Made by a program: the position numbers and the translations under genes. Source: Cymbomonas tetramitiformis (lineage: Eukaryota > Chlorophyta > Pyramimonadophyceae > Pyramimonadales > Pyramimonadaceae). Taken from it: 64,000 nt of DNA. The notes under the pieces were generated by a model. It did no database searches and was not told where the DNA came from. It was given only the letters and a program-made list of their open reading frames with translations. Positions 33,753 to 51,417 of the stretch are shown piece after piece. How positions within the stretch are numbered: position 1 is the stretch's first letter; every line of letters starts with the position of its first letter. The stretch lies in NCBI GenBank assembly GCA_001247695.2, contig LGRX02034240.1:1-64000 (forward strand). Direction: 5' to 3'.

Positions 33753-33971
33753 TGTCGCAAACGTGTGCACATGATGGTACAAATACTGTCGAGCTCGAGC
33801 AATCTTGACACTCGCGGATAACCATAAGTGTGTCATTGACATTCACTGGTCTCGGTAACTGTCCAAGCAATCTCAACATAGTACAAGATCGTAGAGCTAC
33901 AAAATTTTTAGAATTCTGATATACTGAGATCAAACACTAAGCTTCTTCATGCAAGCCCAGATTTCCAACAT
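33753..33971 (-). repeat. 219-bp LTR-like repeat, downstream copy
   Basis: On the minus strand this starts TGTTGGAAATCTGGGCTTGC and ends TTTGCGACA. It is a near-identical direct copy of 34495-34713 (a few substitutions, no indels). It lies 523 bp beyond the other copy and has no polypurine tract in front, so it is a solo LTR or the far LTR of a small or rearranged unit sharing the 34495-34713 repeat. Confidence 0.75.
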
Positions 33972-34494
33972 GAAAAAGGATGAAAACAGCAGTAAAATAT
34001 TTTCATAAAAGTTGGTATAATAACACAAAGTACGAATTATTATCCAAAGCTGTGAGCAGAACTATCTTAGCACTCTAGCACTGGCACGCGAACAGCCACC
34101 TAGCACTCTTGCAAGGCAAGATAATAATGATTCCACTAGCCTGACCTTCAGTCAGAGCTTACTTATATCTCAATGCTCTGTCACATTTCCCAAAACTGTA
34201 ACGGGTTCTAGCCCCTAAATCTTCATCTGGCCAATGGAAAGTCATTATTCCATGCCAGCACTAACAATGTTACCGTTCACCACATTTCGACTGACACGTC
34301 AGTGGCAGAGTAGTCACTGTCATCTTCACCTTATCATTTCTTGGTCACCCGATCATGACCATATCTTCTCTGGCAGGTCTGCATATCTCAGGCAGTCATA
34401 ATCGCGAAGCCTGTCATACTGTCACCTCTGTCACGCGTGTCACCAGCTGGACAAACCCGGCGCGGTACCATGAGAAGCCGGCGTTTGTTACAGC

Positions 34495-34713
34495 TGTCGC
34501 AAACGTGTGCACATGATGGTACAGATACTGTCGAGCTCGAGCAATCTTGACACTCGCGGATAACCATAAGTTTGTCATTAACATTCACTGGTCTCGGTAA
34601 CTGTCCAAGCAATCTCAACATAGTACAAGATCGTAGAGCTACAAAATTTTTAGAATTCTGATATACTGAGATCAAACACTAAGCTTCTTCATGCAAGCCC
34701 AGATTTCCAACAT
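34495..34713 (-). repeat. 3' LTR of the large retroelement (copy 1)
   Basis: 219 bp with TGT...ACA ends, immediately downstream (minus strand) of the purine run GATGGGGGA and 36 bp after the end of ORF2. The same sequence recurs at 33753-33971. No matching 5' LTR exists at the other end of copy 1, where it abuts copy 2. Confidence 0.75.
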
Positions 34714-34724
34714 CCCCCATCTGT
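34714..34724 (-). other. Polypurine tract of the large retroelement
   Basis: AGATGGGGGA on the minus strand directly before the TGTTGG start of the LTR, the standard plus-strand primer position. Confidence 0.7.
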
Positions 34725-34749
34725 AGCTGCTGCGTGCAGTAGCACAGAC

Positions 34750-35091
34750 TCAAATATGGGCTTGTTCAGCATACTGGGTCGTATTACCATCTGCCATGAA
34801 CTTGCCCAAACTGAAAGTGAACATACCAATGCCTTCACCTTCTCCACCCTGTAACATCCTGGCTCTGACCAGAGGATTCTTGAACACCAAAACCCACATG
34901 CATCTGCGGCCAATAGGTCCATGTTCCAGATGTCCAATCACATGCAAGCGTCCAGACTGACTCAATCGTCTGAAGTACGCGCTCTGCTCTCGGTCATGTC
35001 TGTCAAATAGTAAGAAGGAACATGGACACATGCCACCACACGACTGGCCATAACTGCCAAAGGGAACGCGATGTCCAGTGCTGCGAACCAA
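34750..35091 (-). CDS. C-terminal part of the ORF2 methyltransferase-like domain (frameshifted)
   Basis: This frame supplies the end of the domain that starts in 34962-37460. The part from AYFRRLSQSGRLHVI through CMWVLVFKN looks like the last strands of a Rossmann-type methyltransferase. The two frames join if an extra CG in the GCGCG near 34978-34982 is ignored, so the break is a 2-bp insertion. ORF2 ends here at 34750, just before the polypurine tract. Confidence 0.65.
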   Translation of the reverse strand: MVRSTGHRVPFGSYGQSCGGMCPCSFLLFDRHDREQSAYFRRLSQSGRLHVIGHLEHGPIGRRCMWVLVFKNPLVRARMLQGGEGEGIGMFTFSLGKFMADGNTTQYAEQAHI

Positions 35092-37460
35092 GGCGAAGTC
35101 ACCACGGCATCACAAATACCATACTTCTCCTTCCATGCACGATAGTTACCTGGCTGGAGCGCGTCATGCGCCTCAGACCAACCCAGCTGAGAATTCCAGT
35201 CATTATTCATAAACCTCAACTGCGGCCATTGCTCCACCATCACCTCACTGATGACCCCAGTGCCTGCCCACGGGTCCCACACGCCATCGATGGACTTCCA
35301 GTCCACCTCTGTCGCCAAGCGCCTCACCTCGGAGGGCACTGTGATGACCAGCTCAAGCCCCCACTGCAGCGCGCTAGCTTCTCGCACCTGAGCCTTGGTC
35401 ATATGTCTCAATTCTCCTCGCTTTTCAACTTCTTCTTCAGACAAAGCAGGCACACGAGGTGCATCCCTCAACTGCCTTGCCATAGTCTTCTGTTCTCGGT
35501 ACTTCTTGCTCAGCACCGTGCGATGCCCTTCGTTCCAGTGCCCTGGCATGAAGATCTGCACGGCCTTAGAGAGCTTGTCCTGCCTGCCCCAATCAATCTG
35601 ATCTGGCACGCCAAAGAACATGTCCTTCTCCTCCAATAGCATCTCTCTTGATGAGATGGCATGCCATGGCTGAAATTTGTCTCCCTTCACCACACGACGG
35701 GGACCCACGTCTGCTGGCAGCAGGCGCATTTCTGAGGACAGCTTCTCGTTCAATTGCTGCTCCTTCATGCCCAGTCTGTCCTCCAGGACACCAGAGCTCT
35801 TGTCTTCCTGGGTCTGCACCTCAGCGTTAGCAGCTTGCATCCCCGTGCCTGAGCACCTGGGACATAGCCACTCGCCTTCTGGTACTTCATCCAGTGCTGG
35901 GGTAAGACACCACAAGTGGTACCCCCTGTTGCATGCGTCGCACAACAACATCTCTGCTTCCCCATCAGTCTTCCTGCACACTTCACATGCTAGGTGCTTG
36001 CTGGGAACGGCTGCACTGCAGTCATACTGGTCCTTCACCTGTAGGTGACATGGCGCGATGCTCTGCACGGTGCTCTTCTCTCTTAACTTGGCGGCGTCCT
36101 CAAGCACCACCACACCATCTCGCTGTATCTTGACCAGCTTCAGAATGGCGGACTTGGTCGCGACTTCCATGCCGCTGCGAGGCTTCTGTCTGATGTAGAC
36201 AAAGTCACCCACCTTAAACTGGTGTGGCCTAGGCTCAATACCACCACCCCTTCTTCCTTCGTAATGTAGAGTATCACGATGTTGTGCAACCTCCAGGCTG
36301 CAACCAGCGTGCACCATCAGTCGCTTCACCACCTCTGCTCTCAAGAGGAGATCCTTGACCCGAGCGTCCTTGTCATCCTTGACCTCTGGACTGAAGTCTA
36401 TACTGGGCGCTTGCTTCAAATCTGGCGGCACCACTGCCTCTTGGGCAAATAGCAAAGTGAACGGCGCCACTCCTGTGGACTCTTGACGTGCTGCATTATA
36501 GCTCAGCACGAGTGGCCAGAGCTGCTCGTCCCACTCATAGTCGAGGCCCTTCTCCAAGGCGATCTTCTTGAAGCAGAACTTCATCGTGCGCACCACTCGC
36601 TCAGTGAGCCCATTGCCTTCTGGTGAGTCTGGCGAGGTGACTCGTCTGTCTATCAGACAGTCTCTGCATAACTGCTTGAACTCGCCCTCGAACTCTTTGC
36701 CTCCATCCACCAAGCACTCTGCTGGCGCGCCGAACACAGCCAGGACATGACTGCGAAATGCCGCTGCGATGGCCCTTGCCTCCTTGTCAGGAATGGGCAC
36801 GCAGACTATGAATCTGGTGTAGTGCTCGGTCATGATGAGCTTCCTGTTGTTGCCCGCCTTGGTCTGTCTCCTTGAAGGCCATGCCAGGTCCAGCGACCAC
36901 CGATACATGAATGACACGATCTCGAGGGGGGACAAACACGCCTCCTCTCTTGCATAGTGAGTTTTCACGCGCTGACAGGTTTCACACTGAGTAACCACGG
37001 CCTCAACGTCCTTCTTCAGGTCGGCCCACCAATGGCGCTGCCACAGAAGATGCTGCGTGCGTCTTATGCCCCAATGGCCAGTTCTGGAGTGGTATTCTTT
37101 AACCAGTGCAAGACGGTCAGCAGGCTTGGGTATTCTTACTTCCTTGCCTGACAGCGTGATCATGTAGATCTCGTCCGTCGCCTCATCCCATCGATGTCGT
37201 GCTGCGCGTCTCCTCACACGACGAACTCCATCCTCTGGCAACCTCACGCTGCCATTGGACTTCAACCATCTGAGGCACCATGCATCATCATGCACATCTC
37301 GATGCTTGTCACGGTCAGCCTGCTGCTCGGCCACACTGGCCATCAAGTCCGCGAACCTGGTGGTGCACGCCAACCTGGGGAGTCTCATCTCCGCATCTTT
37401 GGCAGGCGGACTCCAAGCAGGCACATCAACGCGCGCTGCTGGAGTTGCGCCCTCCTTCAC
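34962..37460 (-). CDS. Integrase, PHD finger and class-I methyltransferase-like region of ORF2
   Basis: 832 residues from the first Met; the frame opens further upstream through a lysine (AAG) tract at 37519-37547. The integrase has the HHCC zinc cluster (H124, H129, C159, C162) and catalytic D191, D252, E287 in DLAWP, VDGGKEF and LTERVV, followed by an SH3-like KVGDFVYIRQ segment (416-470) usual in gypsy integrases. A C4HC3 PHD finger follows (C492, C495, C507, C510, H515, C518, C533, C536), a fold that reads histone H3 tails. Residues 700-820 carry DPWAGTG (729-735), NNDWN and VTSPWF (787-792), the SAM-binding and catalytic-loop signatures of amino-methyltransferases (N6A/N4C type). SPWF departs from the usual [DNS]PP[YFW], so activity is uncertain. 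Integration and chromatin targeting in the nucleus are the expected roles. Confidence 0.85.
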   Translation of the reverse strand: MKEGATPAARVDVPAWSPPAKDAEMRLPRLACTTRFADLMASVAEQQADRDKHRDVHDDAWCLRWLKSNGSVRLPEDGVRRVRRRAARHRWDEATDEIYMITLSGKEVRIPKPADRLALVKEYHSRTGHWGIRRTQHLLWQRHWWADLKKDVEAVVTQCETCQRVKTHYAREEACLSPLEIVSFMYRWSLDLAWPSRRQTKAGNNRKLIMTEHYTRFIVCVPIPDKEARAIAAAFRSHVLAVFGAPAECLVDGGKEFEGEFKQLCRDCLIDRRVTSPDSPEGNGLTERVVRTMKFCFKKIALEKGLDYEWDEQLWPLVLSYNAARQESTGVAPFTLLFAQEAVVPPDLKQAPSIDFSPEVKDDKDARVKDLLLRAEVVKRLMVHAGCSLEVAQHRDTLHYEGRRGGGIEPRPHQFKVGDFVYIRQKPRSGMEVATKSAILKLVKIQRDGVVVLEDAAKLREKSTVQSIAPCHLQVKDQYDCSAAVPSKHLACEVCRKTDGEAEMLLCDACNRGYHLWCLTPALDEVPEGEWLCPRCSGTGMQAANAEVQTQEDKSSGVLEDRLGMKEQQLNEKLSSEMRLLPADVGPRRVVKGDKFQPWHAISSREMLLEEKDMFFGVPDQIDWGRQDKLSKAVQIFMPGHWNEGHRTVLSKKYREQKTMARQLRDAPRVPALSEEEVEKRGELRHMTKAQVREASALQWGLELVITVPSEVRRLATEVDWKSIDGVWDPWAGTGVISEVMVEQWPQLRFMNNDWNSQLGWSEAHDALQPGNYRAWKEKYGICDAVVTSPWFAALDIAFPLAVMASRVVACVHVPSYYLTDMTESRARTSDD

Positions 37461-37518
37461 GAAGTGGCTCTCGTGCCTCTGGCGATACTGCTCGATGACG
37501 TAGAGCTGCCACTCCTTC

Positions 37519-37547
37519 TTCTTCTTCTTCTTCTTCTTCTTCTTGGT
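37519..37547 (-). repeat. AAG microsatellite (lysine tract)
   Basis: About ten AAG triplets between the DNMT-like domain and the integrase. In the integrase frame they encode Lys, in a neighbouring frame Glu. With the frame change near 37640 this makes the exact linker uncertain. Confidence 0.8.
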
Positions 37548-37630
37548 TCCAGCCTTCTGTCGCTGGGCCCCAATTCCTTCTGCGCCTTTTTGCCCTTTGT
37601 GAGCACATTATCTGCAGCTTCTCCTCCCAG

Positions 37631-38467
37631 TCACGGTGACTCATCACTCATGGTCTTCGCCACCTGCTGAGTATATGCGTTCGAATTCTCAACCCATTCC
37701 GCCAGCAAAGCTTGCCTCTGCTGAAGGTCCGACCTCGCGTGGTCTGCCCAGTTGTTGTCTACAGCGATAGGCTGTCCTGGGGAATTCTCCGCCTCCGAGG
37801 ACTCCTCGCTGTGAGGAAGCCCCTTCCTGCTTGCTTCTGCGACCGCCATCAACAGTTCCATAGCCCTGCGATCCATGGCCAGGCCCAGAATGCTTGCCAA
37901 TTCTACGTCGTTCAGGCCATCGGCCATGCGTAGCTCACTTGCGCTGTAGCCCATGGCTCGCGCCTTCTCGTCGAGGTTCACCTCTCGGGACTCTTCCTCG
38001 ATGTCCTCATCGTTCTGGTTGCGCACCACGGTGCCCATCCTTGCTTTCCTGAATGCTCTTGACCCTTGCGTCGCCATGATGGTGGGAAGAGCCCTTAGCG
38101 GTTCTCCCACCACGTTCACCACGTAGTGAGGCGCGCGGTCTGTTCTTATCACTGGCCTGGGCTGCCAGCCCTCGCACAGGATTGACGATACGACTCGTCC
38201 TTCTGGTCTCGCCACCTTGCTCATCACGGAGCGAAACTGGTGGATCTGGAACAAGTTGCTCCAATACGCTCGCAACCGATGTGCGTAAGCGCCTGCTTGT
38301 GCTGCGTCAAAGGACACTGGTCGGCCAATGACGCTGGCAATGTACGGGAATACTTCGTCCCTGATCTTGGTCCCTGGTCTGTGCGACAATGGGGACACGT
38401 TCTCCAGGATGTATCCTGGGGGCTTCTGCTGCTGTAGCTGCTGCAGCGTGGATACAGTAAGGCTCAC
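37631..38467 (-). CDS. C-terminal half of DNMT3-like cytosine-5 methyltransferase
   Basis: Contains PPGYILENV (E22-N23-V24), the motif VI ENV that activates the target cytosine, and AYAHRLRAYWSNLF (60-73), matching motif VIII of DNMT3 enzymes (HRxRYFWGNL). A T-rich LPTIMATQGSRAF segment corresponds to the DNMT3 motif near the target-recognition domain, and LNDVELASILGLAMDRRAM resembles motifs IX-X. The first six codons lie in the inserted 38455-39350 transposon; the true continuation upstream is 39353. Joining through one TA gives ...YEVVRLL then STLQQL in the same frame, as in DNMT3. After residue 278 the frame ends and shifts toward the integrase. Confidence 0.8.
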   Translation of the reverse strand: MSLTVSTLQQLQQQKPPGYILENVSPLSHRPGTKIRDEVFPYIASVIGRPVSFDAAQAGAYAHRLRAYWSNLFQIHQFRSVMSKVARPEGRVVSSILCEGWQPRPVIRTDRAPHYVVNVVGEPLRALPTIMATQGSRAFRKARMGTVVRNQNDEDIEEESREVNLDEKARAMGYSASELRMADGLNDVELASILGLAMDRRAMELLMAVAEASRKGLPHSEESSEAENSPGQPIAVDNNWADHARSDLQQRQALLAEWVENSNAYTQQVAKTMSDESP

Positions 38468-39350
38468 GTATAAGAAACTCCACCTATAAGAAAGCAGCCG
38501 CTGGAATTTTCGCGAAATTTTAAGAAAGCACTTAAGAAAGAGCCGCTGGATTTTTCGGCAAAATTGATGTCGATTTAAGAAAAATCACGCTGGAAATTTG
38601 TGGTATATGCTCCAAATTATGTATATTTAAGAAAGCGGGTGGCTGGCTTGAGGACCTGTACAATATATCCCGGTTTTGACCATATAAAGTGGAGTATTGA
38701 TTAAATCTAAATGGCCAGAACCTGCGAGTCAAGAGTGAGATCTGCAGTAGGAATGGCGGGGCTTTCTTCCACGCTGAGAGAGCCTGAATCTTCGACTTGG
38801 ATGGGGTGTGTTCTGTCCAAGAGCACACGCTTCTGCGCGCCATATTATTCCTCTATGTCTAAAATCTCTTCGTCCAAAAACTGTTTGAGCTCTTTGAGCT
38901 CATCGACAAGATCTTGTCGCAGATCATAATCGCTGTGGGGATCCTTGCGAAAGAGTTTGGCCTTTTCATTTTTAAAGTCTGCACTTGTGATATACTCGCG
39001 GTCGAGCAGTAATTTTAGGCGTCGCAGCAGACCTTTTTTTGCTGCGTCCATTGGGAAAGTCAACTGAGCATGAAAGAAGACACTGTACAGTATTAAGAAA
39101 GTGTTTCGCTGCAAGATTTCGGCCACAACTCGGCCACGTGTCGGAATAAGAAAATCGTACGCTGGGAAACTAATGGTTGAAATCTGATCCCCGATTAAGA
39201 AAAATCTGACGCCCTCGGAGCACCCGGATAGCCCAGATTTTGCTTCAAATTAGAAACCGCGAATCGCTACGAATATTTCTGGACCGCTCGATTTAAGAAA
39301 GCCAGCCGCTACCCCCACGGCCCGGTTTTCTTATATGTGAGCCTTTACTG
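38455..39350. mobile_element. 896-bp TIR transposon with TA duplication inside the DNMT gene
   Basis: The ends are inverted repeats of about 25 bp (CAGTAAGGCTCACGTATAAG and CAGTAAAGGCTCACATATAA), flanked by TA at 38453-38454 and 39351-39352, the duplication of Tc1/mariner/pogo-type elements. Subterminal TTAAGAAA words followed by CGCTGGAA-like sequence repeat at least four times inside the left end and three times in reverse order inside the right, typical of transposase-binding sites. No full transposase fits; it is non-autonomous. Removing it restores the methyltransferase frame. Confidence 0.85.
38845..39126 (-). CDS. Small hypothetical ORF in the TA-flanked transposon
   Basis: 93 codons, Lys/Glu/Leu-rich, ending FLDEEILDIEE. 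An internal Met at residue 26 (MDAAKKGLLRRL) gives a 68-residue, probably helical, acidic-tailed peptide. It may be a fragment of a transposase. No family recognised. Confidence 0.3.
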   Translation of the reverse strand: MAEILQRNTFLILYSVFFHAQLTFPMDAAKKGLLRRLKLLLDREYITSADFKNEKAKLFRKDPHSDYDLRQDLVDELKELKQFLDEEILDIEE

Positions 39351-40676
39351 TAGAAGCCGAACCACTTCATAAAATAATTTGCTATGCCTGCCATCCAGGC
39401 CTGTAAGCGTTCCAGCAGGGGAGAGATCCTGGCATGGGAACCCACACACCATGACCCACTGACGTCCTCGAAGAGCTCCTGCCCGTATGAAGTCGGCGCT
39501 CGTCATGTCGCGCAGATCTTGGGGTAGGGCCCCAAATTCTACTGCACTGGGCGAAATGAGGTCAGGGTATCGTCGCAGCAACGCCGTACACCTGGCTCTG
39601 GCCACTGTCTGACTGCTCGGTGATATGTCTTGATACAGGTATCGATCCACCTTCATGCCACTGCGGAGCAACATCTCCAGACCAGCACAAAGGCCTCCAC
39701 ATGGCTCATAGCACACCACGCCTTCCTCTCGAGCTTGCGAGAAGAACCGCTTGCTCAACACCCTGGTGTCCACCTTCTCAGGCTTCAAGATGCGTTCGCC
39801 TTCGAAGTACTCATTGCTGTATACAGCGGGGCTTCCTTCGCCATGCGTGCCTCGTGTGGGTCGCACCAGGCTCAGCGCTTTCCAAGCCGCCCTCGCTAGC
39901 CTTCCAGAGTCGGTCACCAATTCGGGTGGGTCAGTGTCGAACATGACCCCATGATGGCACTCCAATTCCTCCTGGTGATGCAAATCGAATAGACGATGCA
40001 CTGGTCCCGTGCCCAGCTGCTCCACGGCAGCCCTCTTGCAGTAGTTGTCAACCTGCACCTCTGGCGTGGCCTCTTCCCCTGGGGAAACATCCCCAGCCAG
40101 CATGAAGCACAGGTGGTCGCAGAAGTCCTTCATGCGAACTTCCCCCACGCCTGCGTGAAGCGCAGTCACCTTTTCTCTCTCATGCCTTGCCCCAGTCTCG
40201 TCCATCGTGGACGGTAACGGGTAGCGAGATGGCACGTCAGCGTTGCTGTTCTTAGCTCCTGGGCGATACTGCACCGTGAAGTCGAACTCCTGCAAGCTGA
40301 TTGCCCAGCGCAGGTGCTGACCCTGAAGATCAGCCTTCTCCATCAAAGTGGTGAGCGGCGAGTGGTCAGTTACCAGCGTGAAGTGTACGCCATGCAGGTA
40401 CTGTCTCAACGTGCGCACTGCCCACACCACTGCAAGCATCTCACCCTTGAAGCTAGCGTACTGCCTCTCTGTCTTGCTCAGGGATCGACTGATTGCCATG
40501 CAAATGTACTCCTTCCCATTGTCATCCTTCTGGCCCAGCACTGCGCCAATGCCATAGGTGCTCCAATCGGTGTACAATATGAGGGGTCTGTCGTCGAGTC
40601 GATTGGCCTCAGACATCTCCCAGAGCAGAGCGCATCCTTCAGCTCCTGGAGCGCTTGGTCTTGATCCTTCCCCCAA
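39345..40676 (-). CDS. RNase H and N-terminal half of DNMT3-like methyltransferase (ORF2)
   Basis: Residues 30-150 are a gypsy-type RNase H: LYTDWSTYGIGAVLG (first Asp), KGEMLAVVWAVRTLRQY (Glu) and LVTDHSPLTTL (Asp). After a linker (about 190-300) comes the methyltransferase: VVCYEPCGGLCAGLEML (motif I, SAM binding), GMKVDRYLYQDI (compare the VDRY block of DNMT3), and GFPCQDLS with the catalytic P414-C415-Q416 of motif IV. The final Gln lies in the inserted transposon. The start Met is not the native start: the RT frame (40478-42820) flows into this one after a frame change near 40600. C5 methylation of element or flanking DNA is the expected activity; it needs SAM. Confidence 0.88.
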   Translation of the reverse strand: MGEGSRPSAPGAEGCALLWEMSEANRLDDRPLILYTDWSTYGIGAVLGQKDDNGKEYICMAISRSLSKTERQYASFKGEMLAVVWAVRTLRQYLHGVHFTLVTDHSPLTTLMEKADLQGQHLRWAISLQEFDFTVQYRPGAKNSNADVPSRYPLPSTMDETGARHEREKVTALHAGVGEVRMKDFCDHLCFMLAGDVSPGEEATPEVQVDNYCKRAAVEQLGTGPVHRLFDLHHQEELECHHGVMFDTDPPELVTDSGRLARAAWKALSLVRPTRGTHGEGSPAVYSNEYFEGERILKPEKVDTRVLSKRFFSQAREEGVVCYEPCGGLCAGLEMLLRSGMKVDRYLYQDISPSSQTVARARCTALLRRYPDLISPSAVEFGALPQDLRDMTSADFIRAGALRGRQWVMVCGFPCQDLSPAGTLTGLDGRHSKLFYEVVRLLQ

Positions 40677-42820
40677 GCTCCCTTGATATCGGTAATCTCT
40701 TTCTTGAGCAGGTCGTTGAGAGGGCGAGCCATCTCAGAGTAGTTCGGCCCTCCTGGCTCACCCACTAAGCCCTTATTATAGTTCATCATGCCCAAGATGG
40801 ACCGAAGTCCCGTCTTGTCCTGCGGCCTCGGAAGCTCCTGGATGGCCTTGCACTTCGCTTCCTGCGCGCCAATGGAGTTATGCCCAATGCGGTAACCCAG
40901 AAAGTCCACCGTGGCTGCACCAAAGGTGCTCTTGCCTGCGTGCAATCTTATGCCAGCGTCCCCCAATGTGCGCAACACGTCCTCGACGTCCTTCAGATGT
41001 TGCTCAGGCGTGGAGTCAGTGTAGACCACTACGTCATCAACGTACGCCACAGTGCAATGCTGCAGATGACGTAACTCGTAGTCCATGATTCTCACAAACG
41101 CAGATGTTGATCCAGCAGCCCCAAAGGGCATCGAAGTGTACTGGTACAACTGGTTCTTCCACCAGAATGCCGTTTTGCTCCTGTCCTCTTCCGTAGCCAT
41201 GGGAATCTGATGGAAGGCTTTGGTGGCATCCAGCGTGGTCTTGAACTTGGCCTTCGCCACCTTCTGGTAGAGCTCCTCTGGTCGATGTGGCAGAGTGTTA
41301 TCCTTGAGGGAGTGTCGATTGACGCCCCTAAGGTCCACGCAGAAGCGAGTCTGGGTCCACAGGCCAGTCGCATGATCCTTCTTACCAGCCACGACGACGT
41401 TGCTCGCATGTCTGCAATGCTTGGCTGCAGGCTCAATGAAGCCATATTCCAGCAATTCCTTGCAGTGGATGTCAATGATCTCTTGTTCGCCCGGGCTGTA
41501 CTTCCTGGGTCTCTGGTAAGCAGCCTTGGACTCGTCCACAAAAGGAATGGAGAACGTGTTGTGCTCTGCCTTGCCCTTGTAGTCTGTCAGGTCGTGAGGG
41601 CTGTTGGCGAAAGTGCCCTTGCATCTGCGAAGGACAGCTCGCATTTCTTCCCAGTGCTCCTCCTTGAAGTCAGGATGCCCTCCAAACGTGGCATTGAGCT
41701 CAGTGTCGAGCCACGCTGCCTCGTCTTTGGTCACAGTGGTGTCGCCCAGAGGTTGAAGCTCGTCCAGCACGGTATACGGCAAGACCTCATCCTGCTCCGC
41801 GACATTGGCCTGCCAACCCGGCTCCCATTGCCTCGACGATTGCTGAGCCTCCCAAGAAGTGCAGAGTGACGCACTCCAGGCACTCCGCGTGGGTGACGTG
41901 ACGCCATGCGCAGGCATGTTCTCCGTCAATGCACCAGCAACCCACAGGATTCCGCACAAAAGCAGAAAAAATCGCAAAATTCTGTTGAACCGCACTGCGG
42001 CTACCGGCGAGTTCGAGGCGAAGAAGCACGCCATTACTCTCCACCCCCCGTGCACCAAGCGAGAACTCCCACCAGCAGCAGTGGAGACCACCAGCGCAAG
42101 GACAATCACCAGGTAGGCGGCCTGCGCGACACGATGAAGCTGGAGATTTCGCCGAAGCTGCGCCCAACGCGCTGCAAAGCGAGGCTTATCCAACCTGGCC
42201 GGCAAAGCGGGCAGGCGCACACGGCCCAGCAAGAAAACTTGGGACCAGCGCAAGGATGGGACAGTCCACCCCCGGCCATCTCGGACGTCACGTACGTCCA
42301 GAGGGACACCCACGGCACAAGAAGCGTGGTGCGCCCCATCCTCCGCATAAATACCAGCGCAGACCCAGAGCCAGGCGAGGACCACGAGGAGAAGGGCTGC
42401 GGCACACTGCGACCAGCATGCCAGGGAAACGACCACCCCCCGGAGGGGTACCACCATCCAACCTTCTGCACGAACACGGTGTACGCCAGCATAGACACCT
42501 GTGGTGCGTACGACAAGGAGCCCAACGTACCAGACATAAGCGAGGGCCCATAGGACCCAAACGTCATAGCATGCACGACGGGGATAACGTCGAGCAACTG
42601 ACCACCATAGCGGCAGCGAGTCCCAAAGCGAGGCCACGCAGCGCCCCCACCATACCTGAAAGGGGCACCACGACAGGCGCCACGCCACTGCTTCAAACAT
42701 CGCCCAAACGGCGACCATGGGCATGGGACCTCGTCCCAGCCACCACCAAACCACTGCACTGCCTGCAAGCGAGATACACGCCTGCAGCACACCCGGGCTC
42801 ATGCGGACTGCAGGGAACAT
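40478..42820 (-). CDS. ORF2 N-terminus: multi-pass membrane-like region plus reverse transcriptase
   Basis: The native start is probably the ATG at 42802 (MSPGVLQACISLAG), which copy 2 shares (MRPGVLRAFLTLAG at 54950); the six codons before it come from a MITE. The first about 300 residues hold six or seven hydrophobic stretches (for example QCAAALLLVVLAWLWVCAGI, AYLVIVLALVVSTAAGG, ILRFFLLLCGILWVAGAL). The RT follows: FCVDLRGVNRHSL, TTLDATKAFHQIP, YTSMPFGAAGSTSAF and AYVDDVVVYT with YVDD at 593-596, then FLGYRIG, all typical of Ty3/gypsy RT. The tail after PRPIDS is out of frame; RNase H continues in 39345-40676. A hydrophobic segment fused in front of RT is not part of the standard gypsy layout. 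Confidence 0.85.
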   Translation of the reverse strand: MFPAVRMSPGVLQACISLAGSAVVWWWLGRGPMPMVAVWAMFEAVAWRLSWCPFQVWWGRCVASLWDSLPLWWSVARRYPRRACYDVWVLWALAYVWYVGLLVVRTTGVYAGVHRVRAEGWMVVPLRGVVVSLACWSQCAAALLLVVLAWLWVCAGIYAEDGAHHASCAVGVPLDVRDVRDGRGWTVPSLRWSQVFLLGRVRLPALPARLDKPRFAARWAQLRRNLQLHRVAQAAYLVIVLALVVSTAAGGSSRLVHGGWRVMACFFASNSPVAAVRFNRILRFFLLLCGILWVAGALTENMPAHGVTSPTRSAWSASLCTSWEAQQSSRQWEPGWQANVAEQDEVLPYTVLDELQPLGDTTVTKDEAAWLDTELNATFGGHPDFKEEHWEEMRAVLRRCKGTFANSPHDLTDYKGKAEHNTFSIPFVDESKAAYQRPRKYSPGEQEIIDIHCKELLEYGFIEPAAKHCRHASNVVVAGKKDHATGLWTQTRFCVDLRGVNRHSLKDNTLPHRPEELYQKVAKAKFKTTLDATKAFHQIPMATEEDRSKTAFWWKNQLYQYTSMPFGAAGSTSAFVRIMDYELRHLQHCTVAYVDDVVVYTDSTPEQHLKDVEDVLRTLGDAGIRLHAGKSTFGAATVDFLGYRIGHNSIGAQEAKCKAIQELPRPQDKTGLRSILGMMNYNKGLVGEPGGPNYSEMARPLNDLLKKEITDIKGAWGKDQDQALQELKDALCSGRCLRPIDSTTDPSYCTPIGAPMALAQCWARRMTMGRSTFAWQSVDP

Positions 42821-43090
42821 ATCAAACTTTTATGTCGTACGGCCAACACTCAAAATTTCCATCGGCCAAGTTTCGGCCATCTCGGCCAAAATCTAAAATT
42901 GCCCGCCGCAGGCGCAAAATTTTAATTTTAAGTATGACAATATGTCAAAAATCGATAAAATTTTGGAAATTTATCGATTTTCCCCTCAATGCGACTCGGC
43001 CCATCCGCAACTTTTCCTTCGGCCCGCCTTCGGCCCGGGCCTCCGTGACACGGCCCCGGGCCGGCCAATCCCAGGAAGATATCTTCCCTG
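42811..43090. mobile_element. 280-bp MITE between ORF1 and ORF2 of copy 1
   Basis: Ends CAGGGAACATATC and GATATCTTCCCTG form 13-bp inverted repeats (one mismatch), with CTG on both sides as a 3-bp duplication. Copy 2 lacks the insertion at the same place (54935-54965). The interior contains GCCGCAGGCGCAAAATTTTA followed by AGTATG, a motif shared with 32045-32090. It lies in the leader between the ORF1 stop and the ORF2 ATG. Confidence 0.75.
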
Positions 43091-43123
43091 CTGGCAGCCC
43101 ACGGCCACAGCGTCGGTCGTGTG

Positions 43124-45409
43124 TCAGGGCTGCCCGCCCGCTGTGCCCGGGGAGCCCTGTTGAAAATGCGGCTGCTGCCTCTGCGTCTCGCGTCGCTGAT
43201 CCGTGTGGCGCTCGAACTCCTGCGTCAACTCTGTGCACACTGAATGCGTCGGAGAAGGCGGGCATCGCAAGGTGAGGCCAGCCGGAATCCGGGACGCTCT
43301 CGGCGCGGAAACGACATGGGATGAAGTCCCATGGCGCCCAGCGGAAGGAGCAGACGCGCGCGCAACATCGCTTGCGCCTTGTCGACGGTCAGCTGCATTG
43401 CCAGAAGGGTGGCGCTGCTGAGATGCAGGGGGGTCTCGGACCTCGTACACATTCCTCGTTTGCACCTCGTCCATGTGCTCGGGCCTCTCGGCCACTCGAG
43501 CCTGAAGGGCGGGCGGCTCATCCGGCGGGAGGCAACGTGCCTCAAAGGATTCCAGCGCCGGCAGCACCCACGGCGCAGCCGTGAGCTTGGTCCCCCACTC
43601 CAAGTGCGTGAACTTCCGGTCGTCCCGCATGACGTAATCGTTCGTGAAATAAGCGCGCCAGAACAAACACCGCCTATCCTCCATGAAAATGTAATGGACC
43701 GGCTTGGCATTCGGGTGCTCCATGCAGCGAAGCACGTGGACTGACCCCAGCCCCACGTAGGAGCACAGCGACCTCTCGATGTTCCTCGCATGGCCTCCTG
43801 GACGCTCCGAACCCGAACCATCGTTTGACAGATCGGAATAGGCCGACATGATCGCCTCCAGCAGGTTGGAAGACGTCGTCTGTCCCCCAAGAGGGAGGCG
43901 CCAGCCTTGGTTCCCACAATGTATGGTCTTGTTGTGCTTCCTCACGACCTTGCCGGGGATACCTGGATGTGTCCGAAGCCGGAGACCTCGTTCACGGTTG
44001 CACACGCCAAGCTCATACACGACACGGCGGCCCCGAAAGCGATCCACGAACGTTATGCCAAACTTCACCATGAAGACGGTGAGGTTGCGGAGATCCCTCA
44101 AGGCCCTCACCTCCTCCACGGACAGAAACGTGTGCACTGAGGTGCTGGATAGGCGTGTGGCTTGCTGCACGGCATCCCAATCTGATCCCGATGGAGACGG
44201 AGGTGCCCTCGCTGGGGACGGAGACAGACGCTGCGCCCGCGGCGGACCCGGAGGTGCAGAGGACACGTCTCGCGGGGAACGTGGTCGAGACCCACGTGGG
44301 ACACGGATTGAGTTTGCCCATGAGCCAATGTTACTCAGAGCAGGCGACGACCCTCCACGAGGAGAGCCAGCAGGGCTCAAGGGTCCAGCTGCTGTCGCGC
44401 AAATGAGCGAAGGCGACAACGCACGGGAATCGCCCGCAAGACCACTGTCGTGGGACGGTGGCGACGGCGTCGTTGAGTGGCCCCTGCTCGGCGGCGACCT
44501 CGCTCGCGTCGGCGCGGGCCTGCTGGCGGACCTGGCACGAGACGACCCAGCGGCGGCCCGAGATGGCCCAGCGGCGGCCTGAGATGGCCCAGCGGCGGCC
44601 TGAGACGGCCCAGCGGCGGCCTGCAACGGCCCAGCGGCGGCCCGAGATGACCCAGCGGCGGCCTGAGACGGCCCCGCCCCGGCAGCAAGCGCAGGTGGCT
44701 GCGGCAGGGCGCGCTTCGTGAGCCTGGTCTTAACCATGTTGCCGGGTGGTGGTGGCCTGCGTTCACCATCTGCGTCAATCGCCTCGTACCCCTGCTGCTC
44801 GGTGTTGACCGACTTGAGCATCTTCCTCATCTCTCCCAATTGTATGTACTCCAGGGCGGCGGCATTCTCGGAGAACACTCTACCGTGCCCACCAAGACCA
44901 TCCTCCACCGGGTAGTACTTGGCATTGGAATCCAGCGAGACGAGCTCCAAGGGTGGTCCTTCTTGGCCGTGTCGAGCATACTGCCGGAATATGCCTCTCG
45001 AGAGGGACTCCACGTCCACCGGGCAGAGATATCTAAGCAACTGGTACTGCCAGAAACCAGTGCTCTCGTACCAGTGAGGGAGTTGGAGCTCTTGCAGCAA
45101 CTCCTCGCCATTCTCGACGAACGCGTGCTCCAACGTACAGCCCATCAAGTCTAGGTACTGCGTGGCTGTGTCCGGCTGGACACAGAAGGCGTTCTCCTTC
45201 AAATCCCACATGAGGGTCCCAGTGACTTCACCACTGGGGTACTTGAGCAATGCCTGGACCTTGTCCTGCAGCTTCTGGATCGGGGTGAAGTCGAGCCTTG
45301 AAATGTCCCTCGGCCTGGGCATGACGACGTTGTGCTTGCTGACAGCGGACGGTACGTGCGTCGTGTAGCTGCCGCCGAGTGTCCAGCGGTCCGTCTCCTC
45401 GCTCGTCAT
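43124..45409 (-). CDS. C-terminal part of ORF1, uncharacterised conserved protein
   Basis: 761 residues, continuing the chain after the protease once a frame change near 45405 is allowed (the 45228-46106 frame reaches the same YDE... sequence). The N-terminal third has a conserved LQLPHWYESTGFWQYQLLRYL block. The middle is low-complexity (QAAAG and Pro/Ser-rich). Residues about 430-620 contain VFMVKFGITFVDRF, RHNKTIHC-like KHNKTIHCGNQGWRLPLGGQT and HVLRCMEHPNAKPVHYIF. These blocks recur in copy 2 with many substitutions, so the region was under protein-level constraint. I recognise no family. ORF1 ends GGQP-stop here, and in copy 2 at the same place. Confidence 0.65.
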   Translation of the reverse strand: MTSEETDRWTLGGSYTTHVPSAVSKHNVVMPRPRDISRLDFTPIQKLQDKVQALLKYPSGEVTGTLMWDLKENAFCVQPDTATQYLDLMGCTLEHAFVENGEELLQELQLPHWYESTGFWQYQLLRYLCPVDVESLSRGIFRQYARHGQEGPPLELVSLDSNAKYYPVEDGLGGHGRVFSENAAALEYIQLGEMRKMLKSVNTEQQGYEAIDADGERRPPPPGNMVKTRLTKRALPQPPALAAGAGPSQAAAGSSRAAAGPLQAAAGPSQAAAGPSQAAAGPSRAAAGSSRARSASRPAPTRARSPPSRGHSTTPSPPSHDSGLAGDSRALSPSLICATAAGPLSPAGSPRGGSSPALSNIGSWANSIRVPRGSRPRSPRDVSSAPPGPPRAQRLSPSPARAPPSPSGSDWDAVQQATRLSSTSVHTFLSVEEVRALRDLRNLTVFMVKFGITFVDRFRGRRVVYELGVCNRERGLRLRTHPGIPGKVVRKHNKTIHCGNQGWRLPLGGQTTSSNLLEAIMSAYSDLSNDGSGSERPGGHARNIERSLCSYVGLGSVHVLRCMEHPNAKPVHYIFMEDRRCLFWRAYFTNDYVMRDDRKFTHLEWGTKLTAAPWVLPALESFEARCLPPDEPPALQARVAERPEHMDEVQTRNVYEVRDPPASQQRHPSGNAADRRQGASDVARASAPSAGRHGTSSHVVSAPRASRIPAGLTLRCPPSPTHSVCTELTQEFERHTDQRRETQRQQPHFQQGSPGTAGGQP
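44536..44690 (-). repeat. 21-bp repeat coding for AAAGPSQ units
   Basis: About seven copies of a unit containing GGCCCAGCGGCGGCCTGAGA, in frame in ORF1, encoding the Ala/Gly/Pro/Ser-rich linker. Copy 2 has only a short AIAGPSRA trace at this position. Confidence 0.8.
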
Positions 45410-46106
45410 AGTGCAGCTTCTGATCCACGTACAGCCAGTTAGGGAACATCAGCTGGTCTATTGTCACCCACTGCTGCTCGCGACACCGTGTGAACTCCAC
45501 GCAGACATGATCTCGGGAAGGTTGAGCCGGCATGTCCTGGGCTGGGCGCTGGAGGATGCGGCAGAGACGCGCGATGCGGCTCCGGTCCAGACACAGTCTC
45601 TGATCCGCCCAGTTGTAGTCGAGAGGCGGACGAATCTCCGTGACCTGGTCCTCAGCGAGCCACTGTGCGCGCCCACCCTCCCAAGGGCTCGGCTCATCAT
45701 AAAACTGTGCGAGCACGCCCTCTGATGCTGTCTGCACGGCAGTTGCCAGTGGCGGCAGGGCACTCCTTCGGCGAATGCTCATCGGGGCTGTCCAAAGGCG
45801 ATTCTGCGCCTGCAGCTCTTCGTGCGTGCTGACGCAAGGCCGTGGGAGTTCACCAGGCTCTCTCGCCGAAGGCGCTGGTGACGCCAATGATGACTCCACG
45901 TCGTCGTCAATATGCTCGGAACGCTGGCCAGAAGCAGCGAACCTCTCCCCCCTCACGCTCGGAGGTGAGTGCCTTAACCATTCGCACTCCAATCCTTGCC
46001 CAAAGATCTCCGACATCAAGCACACCGTAGGATCCACCCGTCTGGGCAGGTCGGGACGTCTGGGTGGTGTCATGTCTACCAGTGGAAGCACCACCTGAGT
46101 ATCCAC
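45228..46106 (-). CDS. Middle part of ORF1 after the protease
   Basis: The frame carries MDTQVVLPLVDMTPP through LMFPNWLYVDQKLHYDE. The same sequence follows the protease directly in copy 2, so here a CG insertion near 46105 has split the chain. It is a linker-like, Arg/Pro-rich segment with a conserved CVEFTRCREQQW-like block. After YDE (about 45405) it is out of frame again and the native chain continues in 43124-45409. No catalytic motif seen. Confidence 0.6.
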   Translation of the reverse strand: MDTQVVLPLVDMTPPRRPDLPRRVDPTVCLMSEIFGQGLECEWLRHSPPSVRGERFAASGQRSEHIDDDVESSLASPAPSAREPGELPRPCVSTHEELQAQNRLWTAPMSIRRRSALPPLATAVQTASEGVLAQFYDEPSPWEGGRAQWLAEDQVTEIRPPLDYNWADQRLCLDRSRIARLCRILQRPAQDMPAQPSRDHVCVEFTRCREQQWVTIDQLMFPNWLYVDQKLHYDERGDGPLDTRRQLHDARTVRCQQAQRRHAQAEGHFKARLHPDPEAAGQGPGIAQVPQW

Positions 46107-48826
46107 GTGCCCAGAATCGTCGGCGCATGTGACACGGCCACACCACTCCCAAGCTTGATGTCAATCATCAAGGAGTTCTTCAGCGGCCCAGTACCTATCA
46201 GCAGGTCCCAAGAGTTCTCGGGCTCGAAGGTCACGAAGGCGTAAAGCCGATGAAGTGTCATGTGCGGTGTGCCTGCAGCCAGTATGACGTCCACATGGCA
46301 GTAATGCGTGAACTTCGTGGGGCTGTTGTCACACCTGGTGACCTTGGCACCGGTGCTGGCCTCATACACCGTAAGGCCCAGTCGCCTCACGACCGCGATG
46401 GAGATGATGTTGCAGTTGGCGCCGGTGTCCATGAGGATCGCCCGGTAAAGCATGAGCTCGCCACCATCAGATGAAACCAGCGCCAGACCCTCATATAGAG
46501 TGGCATTCTGCAACTTGCAGATGGGCTGGACCTGTGTCATCAGCAGCGCCTGCTCGTCGGTCAGGTGCTGCTTCATCTTTTCTCTCAGTGAGTCGTAGGC
46601 ACGGGTCTTGATGGTGCCGGCCCGGACATGTCCATGGTCACTGAAGTCGACCACCCCCAGATCACTCACACAAGCAGCGGCTGCACATCGGGCGGTGACA
46701 CTGTCGGCAACGCCGTCGGGCATCTCATCCAGCGGCAACTCCTCGTCCCTCTGACGTCCTGCGCTCTCGGCTTCCACTTCAACCCCTTGCGCTACCGTAG
46801 CATGCACGTCCTCGAGCTCGTGTTCGTTGACCTCGGTGGGCTGCTCAGCTGCGTTCTTCTGCTCATTATTCATGAGCTCCTCCAGGGCCAGGAGGTTCTC
46901 GAAGTCCTTCGGGATGTCAATGGCGTGCTGGGATACCAAGATTGCTGCGATTTGTGAACAAGCTCGCATGGAGCTGCGGAGGTTGGACGCCAGCAGGTGG
47001 AACTTCCTGCTGAGGATGTTCGGCGGAATGGCCCTGGGTACCTGAGCAGCTTTGTCGAACTCTTCAGGCGTCTTGACCTTGAAGCTCTGCATCTTCTGGG
47101 TGCTACCCAGAGCAACCGCGGCCCTGGCCTGGAACTCTGGCGCATGGCTGGCGCCAGCACCGTCACTGTCCTCCAGTTCCTTCCCCACGAGGCAGCCATG
47201 ATTGTCCTCCTCGTACTCCGCCTGCTGGTTGAAGTGGGAGTCGTACTCGAGCACGTCATCGCCATCCTCTGACTGAGCTTGTGCCTCAACGCCCTTGCCA
47301 CCCTTGGCCGGCACTCCTGGCTGTAGACCTGTCAATTCTGCGGCGAGCTTCTCCTTCACCTCAGCGCTGGCTGCCACCTGCTGCGGCTGCTGCGGCTTCT
47401 GCTTGGACTCCGGCAACTTGAGCCACTCCTTCGTGGTGATACCCATCTTGTGGTGATCGAAGCGGTGGGCGATGTTGTATGCGCGCATCTGAGCATTCTT
47501 GACCTCGTTCGGCCACTTCGAGTTCTGGCGATCCTTGTGGAAGTTGTGGGGTACCTTGGCCTCCCGACTCCCAGTATAGCAGCGCTCTGGCGAATGGGGC
47601 ATCTTCGTGAAGCAGTACTCGAACTGCTGCTTCGAGGCGTCAGGTGGCGGCACCTTGCCATAAGTGGGCTTCTGCCTCTCCGCGTTGTTCGCCTCCCTTG
47701 TAGGCCTCCTCGCACCATCACCACCAGGCTGAGCTGGCTCCTTCTTTTTGGGGTCCCTGCGTTTGTCCCCAGTCTTGTGGGAGGAGCCAGTACGCCTCAT
47801 GGAGGACACCAACTCAGAGAGGTCAAGCCCCAGCATCCTGGCTTCGTAGCAAGAATACACGCAAGTCAGTCTGCGTACGAGTTCCTGCTGGAGCGTCAGG
47901 GCCCATGCTTCTGCATCGTTCTTCAACTTATCCTGCACCTCCACGATGACCTCCAGGTCCTCCCAGGTGACCCTGCTGGGTGCAGGATGGCTGACTCGCA
48001 GCTGCTCTGATACGCGATCTCGGTACTCCTTGATGCGCAGACCCTTGATGCACTCCTCAACGTCCTGTCTGACGATGGAGTCCCCCACTGACTTGCCAGC
48101 ATTGAGCGCCGCTTCCCTGCGTCGGCAGCTTTTCACGTAAGCGAGGCCATCCTGCTCGGCGGTCTGCGACTTGGCGAGCAGCAGGTCCTCCTTCTCCTTG
48201 GTGCCCTTCAACAGGAACTTGGCCTCGAGCTCTACAATGAACGCCCTCAAGGCCCAAAAATAGTGTGAGTCCTCCGTGCCATCCGGCCCTGTGAGACCCT
48301 TGGTGGAAGTTGCATCCTCCTCCCACTCGTTAGACAGCTCACCCTCAGCATCACTATCCTCGAACTTCTTGCAGACTGCCCACGTTGCCCCTGGCGCCAG
48401 CTCATGGAAAGGAGGTTGTGCGCAGCGCACTGAGCCCTGGTAAGAGTCCCTCGTAGTGAGGTCCTTCAAGACGTGCCATGCATGGGAGGCCATAAGGCCA
48501 TTCTTCATGTATGCAGCGCACCACCAGTCATAGGCGACTGAGGTAGCATGATCATCTTCTGCTAGGAGTGAAGGCAAGAGGTCCCACAGCGATCTGTAGT
48601 CTGGTTTGGACTCCATGAAGGCCTTCTTTGCCTGTGCGTTGAGCGAGAGAAAAGCCGCTGACCGCATATGCCTGCGTATCTTAGCCTCGTGAGCCCGCTG
48701 TACTTTTGCCACCATTTCAACAAAGCGCCTGATGAAAAGTGCCCTGTCCTCATTCTTGCCACCAGTGTAACTAAGCTTGTCATCAATCTTGTCAAGTGTG
48801 TGACTGTCTCTGTCATGGTAGTCCAT
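46076..48826 (-). CDS. Gag and aspartic protease of the large retroelement (ORF1 N-terminus)
   Basis: 916 residues. About 1-400 are helical and charged as in a capsid-type Gag. A partial knuckle-like YCFTKMPHSPERC lies near residue 405 but does not fit C-x2-C-x4-H-x4-C. The protease has LMDTGAN with catalytic D800, a NIISIAVVRRLGL strand after it and LLIGTGPL near 875, the features of retropepsins that cleave the polyprotein. The last residues (after PTILG) are out of frame because of a 2-bp insertion. An additional upstream frame (48832-49080, MSTEGSGPESSPSTP...) probably supplies the true N-terminus. Confidence 0.75.
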   Translation of the reverse strand: MDYHDRDSHTLDKIDDKLSYTGGKNEDRALFIRRFVEMVAKVQRAHEAKIRRHMRSAAFLSLNAQAKKAFMESKPDYRSLWDLLPSLLAEDDHATSVAYDWWCAAYMKNGLMASHAWHVLKDLTTRDSYQGSVRCAQPPFHELAPGATWAVCKKFEDSDAEGELSNEWEEDATSTKGLTGPDGTEDSHYFWALRAFIVELEAKFLLKGTKEKEDLLLAKSQTAEQDGLAYVKSCRRREAALNAGKSVGDSIVRQDVEECIKGLRIKEYRDRVSEQLRVSHPAPSRVTWEDLEVIVEVQDKLKNDAEAWALTLQQELVRRLTCVYSCYEARMLGLDLSELVSSMRRTGSSHKTGDKRRDPKKKEPAQPGGDGARRPTREANNAERQKPTYGKVPPPDASKQQFEYCFTKMPHSPERCYTGSREAKVPHNFHKDRQNSKWPNEVKNAQMRAYNIAHRFDHHKMGITTKEWLKLPESKQKPQQPQQVAASAEVKEKLAAELTGLQPGVPAKGGKGVEAQAQSEDGDDVLEYDSHFNQQAEYEEDNHGCLVGKELEDSDGAGASHAPEFQARAAVALGSTQKMQSFKVKTPEEFDKAAQVPRAIPPNILSRKFHLLASNLRSSMRACSQIAAILVSQHAIDIPKDFENLLALEELMNNEQKNAAEQPTEVNEHELEDVHATVAQGVEVEAESAGRQRDEELPLDEMPDGVADSVTARCAAAACVSDLGVVDFSDHGHVRAGTIKTRAYDSLREKMKQHLTDEQALLMTQVQPICKLQNATLYEGLALVSSDGGELMLYRAILMDTGANCNIISIAVVRRLGLTVYEASTGAKVTRCDNSPTKFTHYCHVDVILAAGTPHMTLHRLYAFVTFEPENSWDLLIGTGPLKNSLMIDIKLGSGVAVSHAPTILGTWILRWCFHW

Positions 48827-48831
48827 CTCGT

Positions 48832-49080
48832 CTACTGTACGTCGTCAAACGCAAAGAGGAACTGGTTGGCTGCTGCTGCTGCTGCTCTTGCAGATGCTGC
48901 TGCCCTTACTGTTGCTAATGAAGTTGGTGTGGAGGGACTGGATTCTGGACCTGACCCTTCTGTGCTCATATAGCCAACGTCACGCTGCTGACTGCTTGTC
49001 TCCCGTGCCAGTCGCCGTGCGTCACGCTGCCTGGACTGGACAGTGGCAGCGCTCAGCTCCGCCTCGCTCTCCGTGATCAA
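48832..49080 (-). CDS. Probable N-terminal extension or leader of Gag
   Basis: An open frame whose internal Met (MSTEGSGPESSPSTPT, about 48971) is followed by an Ala-rich stretch from a CTG/CAG repeat and FLFAFDDVQ. It stops 5 bases before the Gag ATG in another frame. It may be the Gag N-terminus separated by a frame change, or leader sequence. Coding status is uncertain. Confidence 0.35.
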   Translation of the reverse strand: MITESEAELSAATVQSRQRDARRLARETSSQQRDVGYMSTEGSGPESSPSTPTSLATVRAAASARAAAAAANQFLFAFDDVQ

Positions 49081-49090
49081 GTGCTACGTC

Positions 49091-49366
49091 AGAGTCGACC
49101 ACCAGCTCTGGTTGGTCCGGGTCGAACAGGGCCGCGTGATTACACTCCAACTCATCTTGATGGTGCAAATCGAATAAGCGATGTACTGGGCTCGTGCCCA
49201 GCTGCTCTCTGGCCGCCATCTTGCAGTAGTTAGCGACCTGCACCTCTGGCGTCACCTCTTCCCCTGCGGGAGGGTCACCAGCCAGCATGAAGCACAAGCT
49301 GTCGCAGAAATCCTTCGTGTAAACTTCCCCCACGCCTGCGTGAAGCGCAGATGCCTTTTCTCGCTG
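49091..49366 (-). pseudogene. Linker fragment downstream of RNase H (copy 2)
   Basis: Encodes GVGEVYTKDFCDSLCFMLAG and VHRLFDLHHQDELECNHA, matching the copy 1 segment between RNase H and the DNMT-like domain. It is the continuation of the 52044-53852 frame beyond the inserted TIR element. Similarity ends at the GACTCTG at 49091, where copy 1 leader sequence begins. Confidence 0.75.
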
Positions 49367-49802
49367 GTAGGCTATTTAATTTAGATTATTTCTTTGTGAT
49401 TTTAGATTAACTCATTTTCATGTTGATTTTTTTGATGTCATCCGGCTATTACCGGTGCATGCATCCATGCCATCGAAATATTACACAAAAGAGTTGTCGC
49501 GTAGCCAAACGAGAGGAAAGTAACATGGCTGAGCCCGACGGCTTTGAGTTCACAAGCCCGGGCAAAAATGTGGAGGATAGTAAGACAGTAACACGCCAAC
49601 TCAAAGACAGTAGCACGTCAAATCAAGATATGTTTCACACAAGACTTACGGAGGGAAAAGAATAAAAAGTGTTTTTTACACACTACAGACTCTAGCATTT
49701 TTATCGCATTGTTCTATCTCACGCAAGAAAGCATATGCATAAGGAGTTCTTGCACGCATATCATACGCACGTACGAAAAAGCATTTTCCTTTTCACGCAT
49801 CT

Positions 49803-50340: not shown

Positions 50341-50341
50341 G

Positions 50342-51013: not shown

Positions 51014-51017
51014 TTTG

Positions 51018-51333: not shown

Positions 51334-51417
51334 TGTTGCTATGTTGGTTTTTTATCCCTAGGTATTTTTATTACGGATAGATATCCAAACCAGCACGCTA
51401 CTTTTCAAAGTGGTAGC

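Follow-up and report, generated by a model that had tools for sequence, protein, structure and literature searches.

The closest published counterpart of the retroelement described here is KnitGypsy-Dnmt3 from Klebsormidium nitens, which carries a Dnmt3-type domain in a gypsy pol frame, is equipped with DIRS-like repeats and was reported to keep its DNA methyltransferase (DNMT) under purifying selection (de Mendoza et al., 2018; PMC5890265). In the prasinophyte Cymbomonas tetramitiformis, a stretch of 64,000 nucleotides (contig LGRX02034240.1, positions 1–64,000; hereafter the window) includes on its minus strand, at 33753–49089, a broken and 5′-truncated copy of a Ty3/gypsy-type retroelement. 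The family of this copy shares with KnitGypsy-Dnmt3 the Dnmt3-type domain in a gypsy pol frame as well as the DIRS-like repeats, whereas it differs by a PHD finger and a second methyltransferase-like domain following the integrase, and by its host, Klebsormidium being a streptophyte. The main text of the published description does not contain the term PHD (0 occurrences) and mentions adenine methyltransferases for DIRS elements only (PMC5890265), the two elements being compared by description. As far as that text goes, a DNMT3 domain in gypsy pol together with DIRS-like repeats is known, and the addition of a PHD finger and a second methyltransferase-like domain appears to be new. No K. nitens sequence was present among the matches of our relative search, which, being based on shared words, would miss distant ones. 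A literature search, with subscription papers, preprints, figures and supplements lying outside its scope, yielded no DNMT-bearing gypsy element with both a PHD finger and a second methyltransferase.

SymbioDIRS-Dnmt3 and SymbioLINE-Dnmt from Symbiodinium also hold a DNMT within a retroelement, and SymbioDIRS is described as having it in pol and as exhibiting A-coding-B-A-B repeats; both differ, however, by a tyrosine recombinase or a LINE endonuclease in place of the H2C2/DDE integrase and the TG...CA ends found here (PMC5890265). DIRS elements with a Dam-like adenine methyltransferase are similar in being retroelements with an amino-methyltransferase, but are presented in the same text with a tyrosine recombinase, another domain order and no C5-type DNMT in the same element (PMC5890265). 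From C. tetramitiformis itself a chromodomain gypsy element has been reported, and the main text of the 2023 assembly paper is without mention of a methyltransferase (PMC10675990). Burns et al. (2015) noted three scaffolds of more than 10,000x coverage with coding regions similar to chromodomain, RNase H and cytosine DNA methyltransferase, which they deemed retrotransposon-associated (PMC5741210). These scaffolds are probably pieces of such elements, although the text seen of that paper describes no element, PHD finger, second methyltransferase or repeat structure (PMC5741210).

That all of these domains belong to one element is most evident from sister copies. The searched genome comprised 851.7 Mb, and 12 copies, chosen for long frames among 124 DNMT matches, were fetched. 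Four of them (L009–L012) exhibited a single pol frame of 2398 amino acids (aa) in which tags of reverse transcriptase (RT), DNMT, PHD finger and DPWAGTG all occur; the C-terminal domain of these four could be aligned over its full length without any stops. The domain order in pol is RT-RNase H, DNMT3-like C5-methyltransferase, H2C2/DDE integrase, PHD finger and a C-terminal Rossmann methyltransferase (DPWAGTG...SPWF). In a fifth copy (L015, 2242 aa), the frame stays open beyond DPWAGTG and meets a stop ahead of SPWF; in the remaining seven it is cut short by mutations or because the fetched stretch ends. Pfam searches with the L009 pol protein yielded RVT_1 (2.2e-21), RT_RNaseH (2.6e-32), DNA_methylase (1.7e-10), Integrase_H2C2 (1.2e-16) and PHD (1.3e-10), whereas rve (E 1.1e-6) stayed with 29.3 bits below its cut-off of 32.6.

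As four copies contain all domains in one 2398-aa frame, these domains are not separate inserted genes. The idea that a plain gypsy element received host or viral genes by insertion, or acquired them through misassembly, draws on the window copy being interrupted by an insertion and adjoining a second copy; it is ruled out by the single-frame copies, unless every one of these is an assembly artefact, and retains next to no probability, the more so as the domain order is the same in distant relatives and as all 150 places scored, out of 3291 first-look candidates, held the C-terminal domain of the window subfamily at 96–100% identity. This last result indicates a family that is large and in part recent. 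The original prediction, made from the letters of the window, had placed Gag-protease, RT-RNase H, a C5-methyltransferase, integrase, PHD finger and a DPWAGTG/SPWF domain on the minus strand, with which Pfam matches and motif positions agree. Its single unit is right in the sense that these are domains of one element; the window copy itself is not intact, owing to an insertion flanked by terminal inverted repeats (TIR), several frame changes and a cut 5′ end.

In the window, the DNMT extends over 37690–39713 (low end approximate), as delimited by Pfam, motifs, tblastn and PDB profile matches. Motif I is located at 39672–39713, PCQ at 39411–39443, ENV at 38390–38413, HRLRAYW at 38261–38281 and the motif X region at 37853–37891. 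The Pfam match to DNA_methylase (E 2.4e-6) spans just 36 aa in its frame. A profile of 10 rows matched 48 PDB sequences at E ≤0.001, of which the first 27 were DNMT3A, DNMT3B or DNMT3C entries (best 1.8e-10); a DRM entry of plant type, M.HhaI and others ranked after these. On the basis of these matches and of the PCQ, ENV and HRLRAYW motifs, the C5 domain is nearest to DNMT3 among solved structures. The same genome includes seven further near-full-length DNMT matches in frames of 383–401 aa (C25294, C20845, C8, C6, C2041, C154 and C16883; E 1.6e-29 to 6.4e-27), which by sequence apparently represent another multicopy DNMT family.

The PHD finger (35853–35990; Pfam PHD, E 3.4e-12) contains the zinc ligands of the C4HC3 type and is above the Pfam cut-off in the window as well as in the L009 pol protein. 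Its profile matches the PHD fingers of CHD4, KMT2, KDM5, BAZ2 and PHF21A. Chromoviruses carry a chromodomain just behind the integrase and thus likewise possess a histone-reader-type domain C-terminal of this enzyme. In the Cymbomonas element, the chromodomain is replaced by the PHD finger (no PF00385 in the L009 pol protein at E up to 1, the PHD finger being in that position), and the DNMT and the second methyltransferase are added.

The C-terminal domain (34753–35450) was delimited by tblastn to the L009 pol protein, by its motifs and by the fold of the homologue P0048. It exhibits a Rossmann fold with motif I (DPWAGTG, 35256–35276) before motif IV (SPWF, 35085–35105), which is the layout of amino-methyltransferases, and an acidic motif (NND, 35193–35213) between the two. 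In an alignment of 13 sequences (A2), little or no variation is seen in motif I (DP[FW]xGT), in the acidic ND and in SPWF. SPWF does not match the motif IV pattern (N/D/S)PP(Y/F/W), as the proline of the third position is replaced. Matches to MethyltransfD12 were weak (4 of 17 members, best E 0.014; P0014 E 0.0037), and no Pfam family was found for the DPWAGTG/SPWF part of the window frames. After re-alignment, adenine-N6 methyltransferases lead the fold matches, with METTL5 and KsgA-type RNA adenine methyltransferases tying with M.TaqI. In searches for a profile name, PHROGs returned just weak "DNA methyltransferase" rows with P0076 and no such row with P0048, NCBIfam yielded nothing convincing for this domain, and the listed PDB profile matches all fell on the PHD part. 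Hence, of the predicted combination of C5-methyltransferase, N-type methyltransferase and PHD finger, the C5 enzyme, the PHD finger and a second domain do occur in one element, while the N-type (amino-) methyltransferase nature of the latter is plausible, as judged from motifs and modeled fold.

The relative search returned 47 matches. Among those labeled C. tetramitiformis, P0001 and P0004 were 93% and 96% identical, and P0054 was 100% identical to G000:C18204. Another 15 relatives without this label (P0014–P0022, P0024–P0028 and P0031), which stem from metagenome-type sources, encode a related pol with 31–42% identity and repeat the same domain order or much of the plan. Pfam PHD was found in 14 of the 15 (all except P0027), and at least one DNMT motif also in 14 (all except P0031; P0028 with the weakest pattern only). 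SPWF is present in nine, with RPFY in P0022 and SPQY in P0031, and motifs I and IV of the second methyltransferase are unrecognizable in P0024, P0025, P0026 and P0028. Copies without methyltransferases, of which the existence would have spoken against the original prediction, were thus encountered only among these distant relatives, as P0031 lacks the DNMT and the four just named lack the motifs of the second domain. In an integrase tree, the 15 relatives and the Cymbomonas rows were joined as 19 rows at 99/97. P0024, P0025 and P0022 were grouped at 100/98 and P0026 with P0028 at 89/86, whereas P0031 formed a long branch of unsure placement. Because this tree splits P0024/P0025 from P0026/P0028, the motifs of the second methyltransferase were probably lost at least two times. 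A G-patch-like motif lies between DNMT and integrase in P0016 and, according to Pfam, in P0017, and a possible Tudor-like stretch between PHD finger and methyltransferase was seen in metagenomic relatives, by eye only.

The ratio of nonsynonymous to synonymous substitutions (Ka/Ks, Nei-Gojobori) was calculated between two subfamilies, L009 versus L016–L019, giving four comparisons which are not independent of each other. Values were 0.06–0.08 for the DNMT, 0.03–0.04 for the PHD finger and 0.01–0.05 for the C-terminal domain, next to 0.02–0.03 for RT, 0.01–0.02 for RNase H and 0.05–0.07 for the integrase. By this measure, DNMT, PHD finger and C-terminal domain are constrained between subfamilies in the same way as RT. 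Comparisons with the window copy gave 0.18 for the DNMT and 0.06–0.08 or no computable value for the others, with Ks being near saturation. The constraint also bears on the question whether the C-terminal domain might be a catalytically dead fold which serves the integrase complex structurally or by binding nucleic acid, leaving the DNMT as the sole enzyme. The non-canonical SPWF would fit with this idea, as would P0024, P0025, P0026 and P0028, which have no recognizable motifs I and IV. In three of these four, the downstream part of the domain still aligns at E 3e-7 to 0.002 (P0026 0.056), a pattern expected of a domain whose fold counts for more than its catalytic function. The low Ka/Ks of the domain and the (near) invariance of motif I, ND and SPWF in the 13-sequence alignment, however, argue against a dead fold, which we consider possible but somewhat unlikely.

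The repeats of the element do not follow the gypsy pattern. In copy C1905, a repeat A1 (384 bp) forms the 5′ end, and the 3′ end consists of B1 (225 bp), a GC dinucleotide, A2 (98.7% identical to A1 over 384 bp) and B2. The resulting order A-coding-B-A-B is that of DIRS-type elements, but the ends, in C1905 and others, are TG...CA. C1905 does not exhibit identical long terminal repeats (LTRs) at both ends. Judged by sequence, the element is therefore gypsy-like in its proteins and not in its repeat layout. A tyrosine recombinase domain (PF00589) was absent from Pfam scans of C1905 pol and 1983 aa of its first open reading frame (ORF1), a DDE integrase being present instead. In the window, a polypurine tract and an LTR had been predicted as the end of the unit. 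The tract CAGATGGGGGA (34714–34724, its last A shared with the repeat boundary) is indeed there, and the same tract precedes B1 in C1905. What follows it, instead of a simple LTR, is a B1-A2-B2 array reaching to 33753: B1 (34495–34713) starts with TGTTGG directly after the tract, A2 together with the separating GC dinucleotide (GCGACA-GC-TGTAAC) occupies 33972–34494, and the terminal B2 (33753–33971, 219 bp, 98.6% identical to B1) ends with GCGACA. A comparison of the 5′ side of the window copy (48600–49089) with the A repeat gave no match. We infer from the junction sequence that B1-GC-A2 resembles the joined ends of a two-LTR circle.

The B-A-B block of the window gave 42 matches, including itself, among 40 scored of 3057 candidates, each covering at least 940 of its 961 bases at 94–100% identity. 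At C18438:8399-10848 (G000), three overlapping B-A-B matches spaced 744 bp apart form a tandem A-B series. Target duplications of 4 bp were present in two of the four copies with both ends read (C1905, CCCT; C24244, TGCT). The window further contains, near 60150–60165, an empty site corresponding to the C1905 insertion, the flanks of which match with 92.6% and 95.4% and consist of repeated host sequence.

The best explanation of these findings would be that a Ty3/gypsy-type family took a chromatin write-and-read module into its pol and that this module acts in integration or marking. The PHD finger would tether the pre-integration complex to nucleosomes, most likely via H3 tails unmodified at K4, which are proposed as target because the nearest solved relatives of this PHD finger are mostly such readers. 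The DNMT3-like domain would then methylate cytosines, either in newly made cDNA or at the site of insertion, and the C-terminal domain may either bind the substrate or place another methyl mark on an amino group (adenine N6 or cytosine N4). Integration would be carried out by the DDE integrase, with the internal repeats templating the completion of the terminal ones, as has been proposed for split-direct-repeat elements. The gain for the element might be that copies arrive pre-marked or in compatible chromatin and are hence tolerated. As animal DNMT3 enzymes combine de novo methylation with an ADD domain that reads H3K4me0, the pair of DNMT and PHD finger would be, by analogy, an independently built counterpart of this coupling. 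We regard the chances of this explanation, taken as a whole, as evenly balanced: domain presence, order and constraint come from sequence, while we infer all catalytic and binding steps. That the element may mark its own DNA and choose sites by chromatin state, as had been put forward originally, is likewise suggested by domain content. The fuller claim of an integrase polyprotein which combines a writer of two marks (5-methylcytosine, 5mC, and a second amino-methyl mark) with a reader of H3, and which thereby sets the chromatin state of its own copies, appears unlikely to us.

Several observations weigh against the write-and-read explanation. A crude test on eight close copies, with coding constraint left in, showed no clear CpG decay: C/T differences amounted to 0.018 at CG versus 0.016 at CA, 0.027 at CT and 0.038 at CC, and G/A differences to 0.038 at CG versus 0.024–0.030 elsewhere. 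Ka/Ks values of the close pairs among L016, L017 and L018 scatter, with 0.79–1.04 for the PHD finger at a Ks near 0.025, 0.19–0.25 for the DNMT, and 0.08–0.15 for the C-terminal methyltransferase, and one RNase H pair within subfamilies gives 1.42, the underlying differences being few. AlphaFold2 modeled the C-terminal protein with modest confidence (mean pLDDT 60.6, pTM 0.60). Foldseek's own ranking opens with an Rv0187 methyltransferase, a type I M subunit and COMT; O-methyltransferases are among its first entries, and TM-scores are low. Two of the four positions of SPWF deviate from NPPY, and in relatives the motif reads SPQY or RPFY or has been lost. Finally, the copies C1237 and C20827, the other two with both ends read, exhibit no target duplication.

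The lack of a clear CpG decay signal in DNA would also be compatible with both methyltransferases acting on RNA, either that of the element or a primer. Such an action might serve stability or packaging, or help to escape an RNA sensor of the host. The tie of METTL5 and KsgA-type enzymes with M.TaqI fits with this possibility, and RNA methylation has been raised for the DNMTs of LINE elements in the text of de Mendoza et al. (PMC5890265). The C5 domain is, however, nearest to DNMT3, a DNA enzyme, and the DNMT3-type domains of SymbioDIRS are described as methylating CG de novo in yeast (PMC5890265), which makes a role on RNA distinctly unlikely. An accessory defence function, in which the methyltransferases would mark or damage competing DNA of viruses or other elements, could be derived from an opinion paper in which the accessory domains of retrotransposon polyproteins are proposed to act in defence (PMC6338049), and from the host genome being described as rich in viral elements (PMC10675990). 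As the domains sit in pol beside the integrase they would travel with the integration complex, and the present data contain no link to viral DNA, so that we hold such a function to be very improbable. Two scans of viral_contigs for viral carriage, one with the alignment of the C-terminal domain and one with that of the DNMT, produced 30 and 13 pattern matches, respectively, none of which was confirmed as a relative.

The remaining coding parts of the window copy also lie on the minus strand. ORF1 begins with a Gag-protease frame (46076–48844), which consists of a Gag-like region and a putative aspartic protease (DTGA, 46409–46438) and is 40% identical to ORF1 of C1905 across 48832–46109. Pfam named no family for this frame, and in C1905 ORF1 Asp_protease_2 (E 0.013) remained below cut-off, with no Gag family match. 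The later part of ORF1 (43124–46160) is a decayed frame with low-complexity repeats and no Pfam match. The RT frame (40478–42829) contains the reverse transcriptase at 40886–41314 (RVT_1, E 1.8e-23; YVDD, 41027–41047), and the next frame (39345–40733) holds RNase H (40284–40592; RT_RNaseH, E 1.4e-32) and the first part of the DNMT, the rest of which lies in the frame 37631–38584. Integrase, PHD finger and C-terminal methyltransferase share the frame 34962–37607. The integrase, with an H2C2 zinc domain and a DDE core, covers 36594–37124 (Integrase_H2C2, 1.2e-16; rve, 6.5e-6). Of the profiles suggested for checking the window, RVT_1, DNA_methylase and PHD were matched, whereas rve remained with 26.8 bits below the cut-off of 32.6; the D (36876–36899), D (36699–36716) and E (36594–36614) motifs are nonetheless present.

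The frame of the window pol changes near 40577, 37580 and 34980. A later TIR insertion of approximately 0.88 kb (about 38460–39346), with AAGGCTCACRTATAAGAAA as inverted ends, interrupts the DNMT and separates its motif IV from motif VI; the insertion holds repeated TTTCTTA motifs. The 5′ end of the copy is cut at 49089, beyond which a second, more decayed minus-strand copy of the same family begins (49090–58716; nucleotide matches of 72–84%, tblastn). This second copy carries a TIR element at about 49371–52050, whose arms of 58 nt are 98% complementary. Within it, the minus-strand frame 49803–50357 opens with MDPFAGGSG, which resembles motif I of amino-methyltransferases, and is without Pfam match.

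The capture of DNMTs by retroelements is known from few lineages. To such a DNMT the Cymbomonas family joins, within one polypeptide, a putative reader of histones and another methyltransferase of unrelated type. With its high copy number, and with relatives in which one or the other of these modules is missing or degenerate, it offers natural comparisons. Native nanopore reads of the host could show 5mC and N6-methyladenine (6mA) on recent copies together, and such data would reveal whether the epigenetic state of transposons is determined by the transposons themselves.

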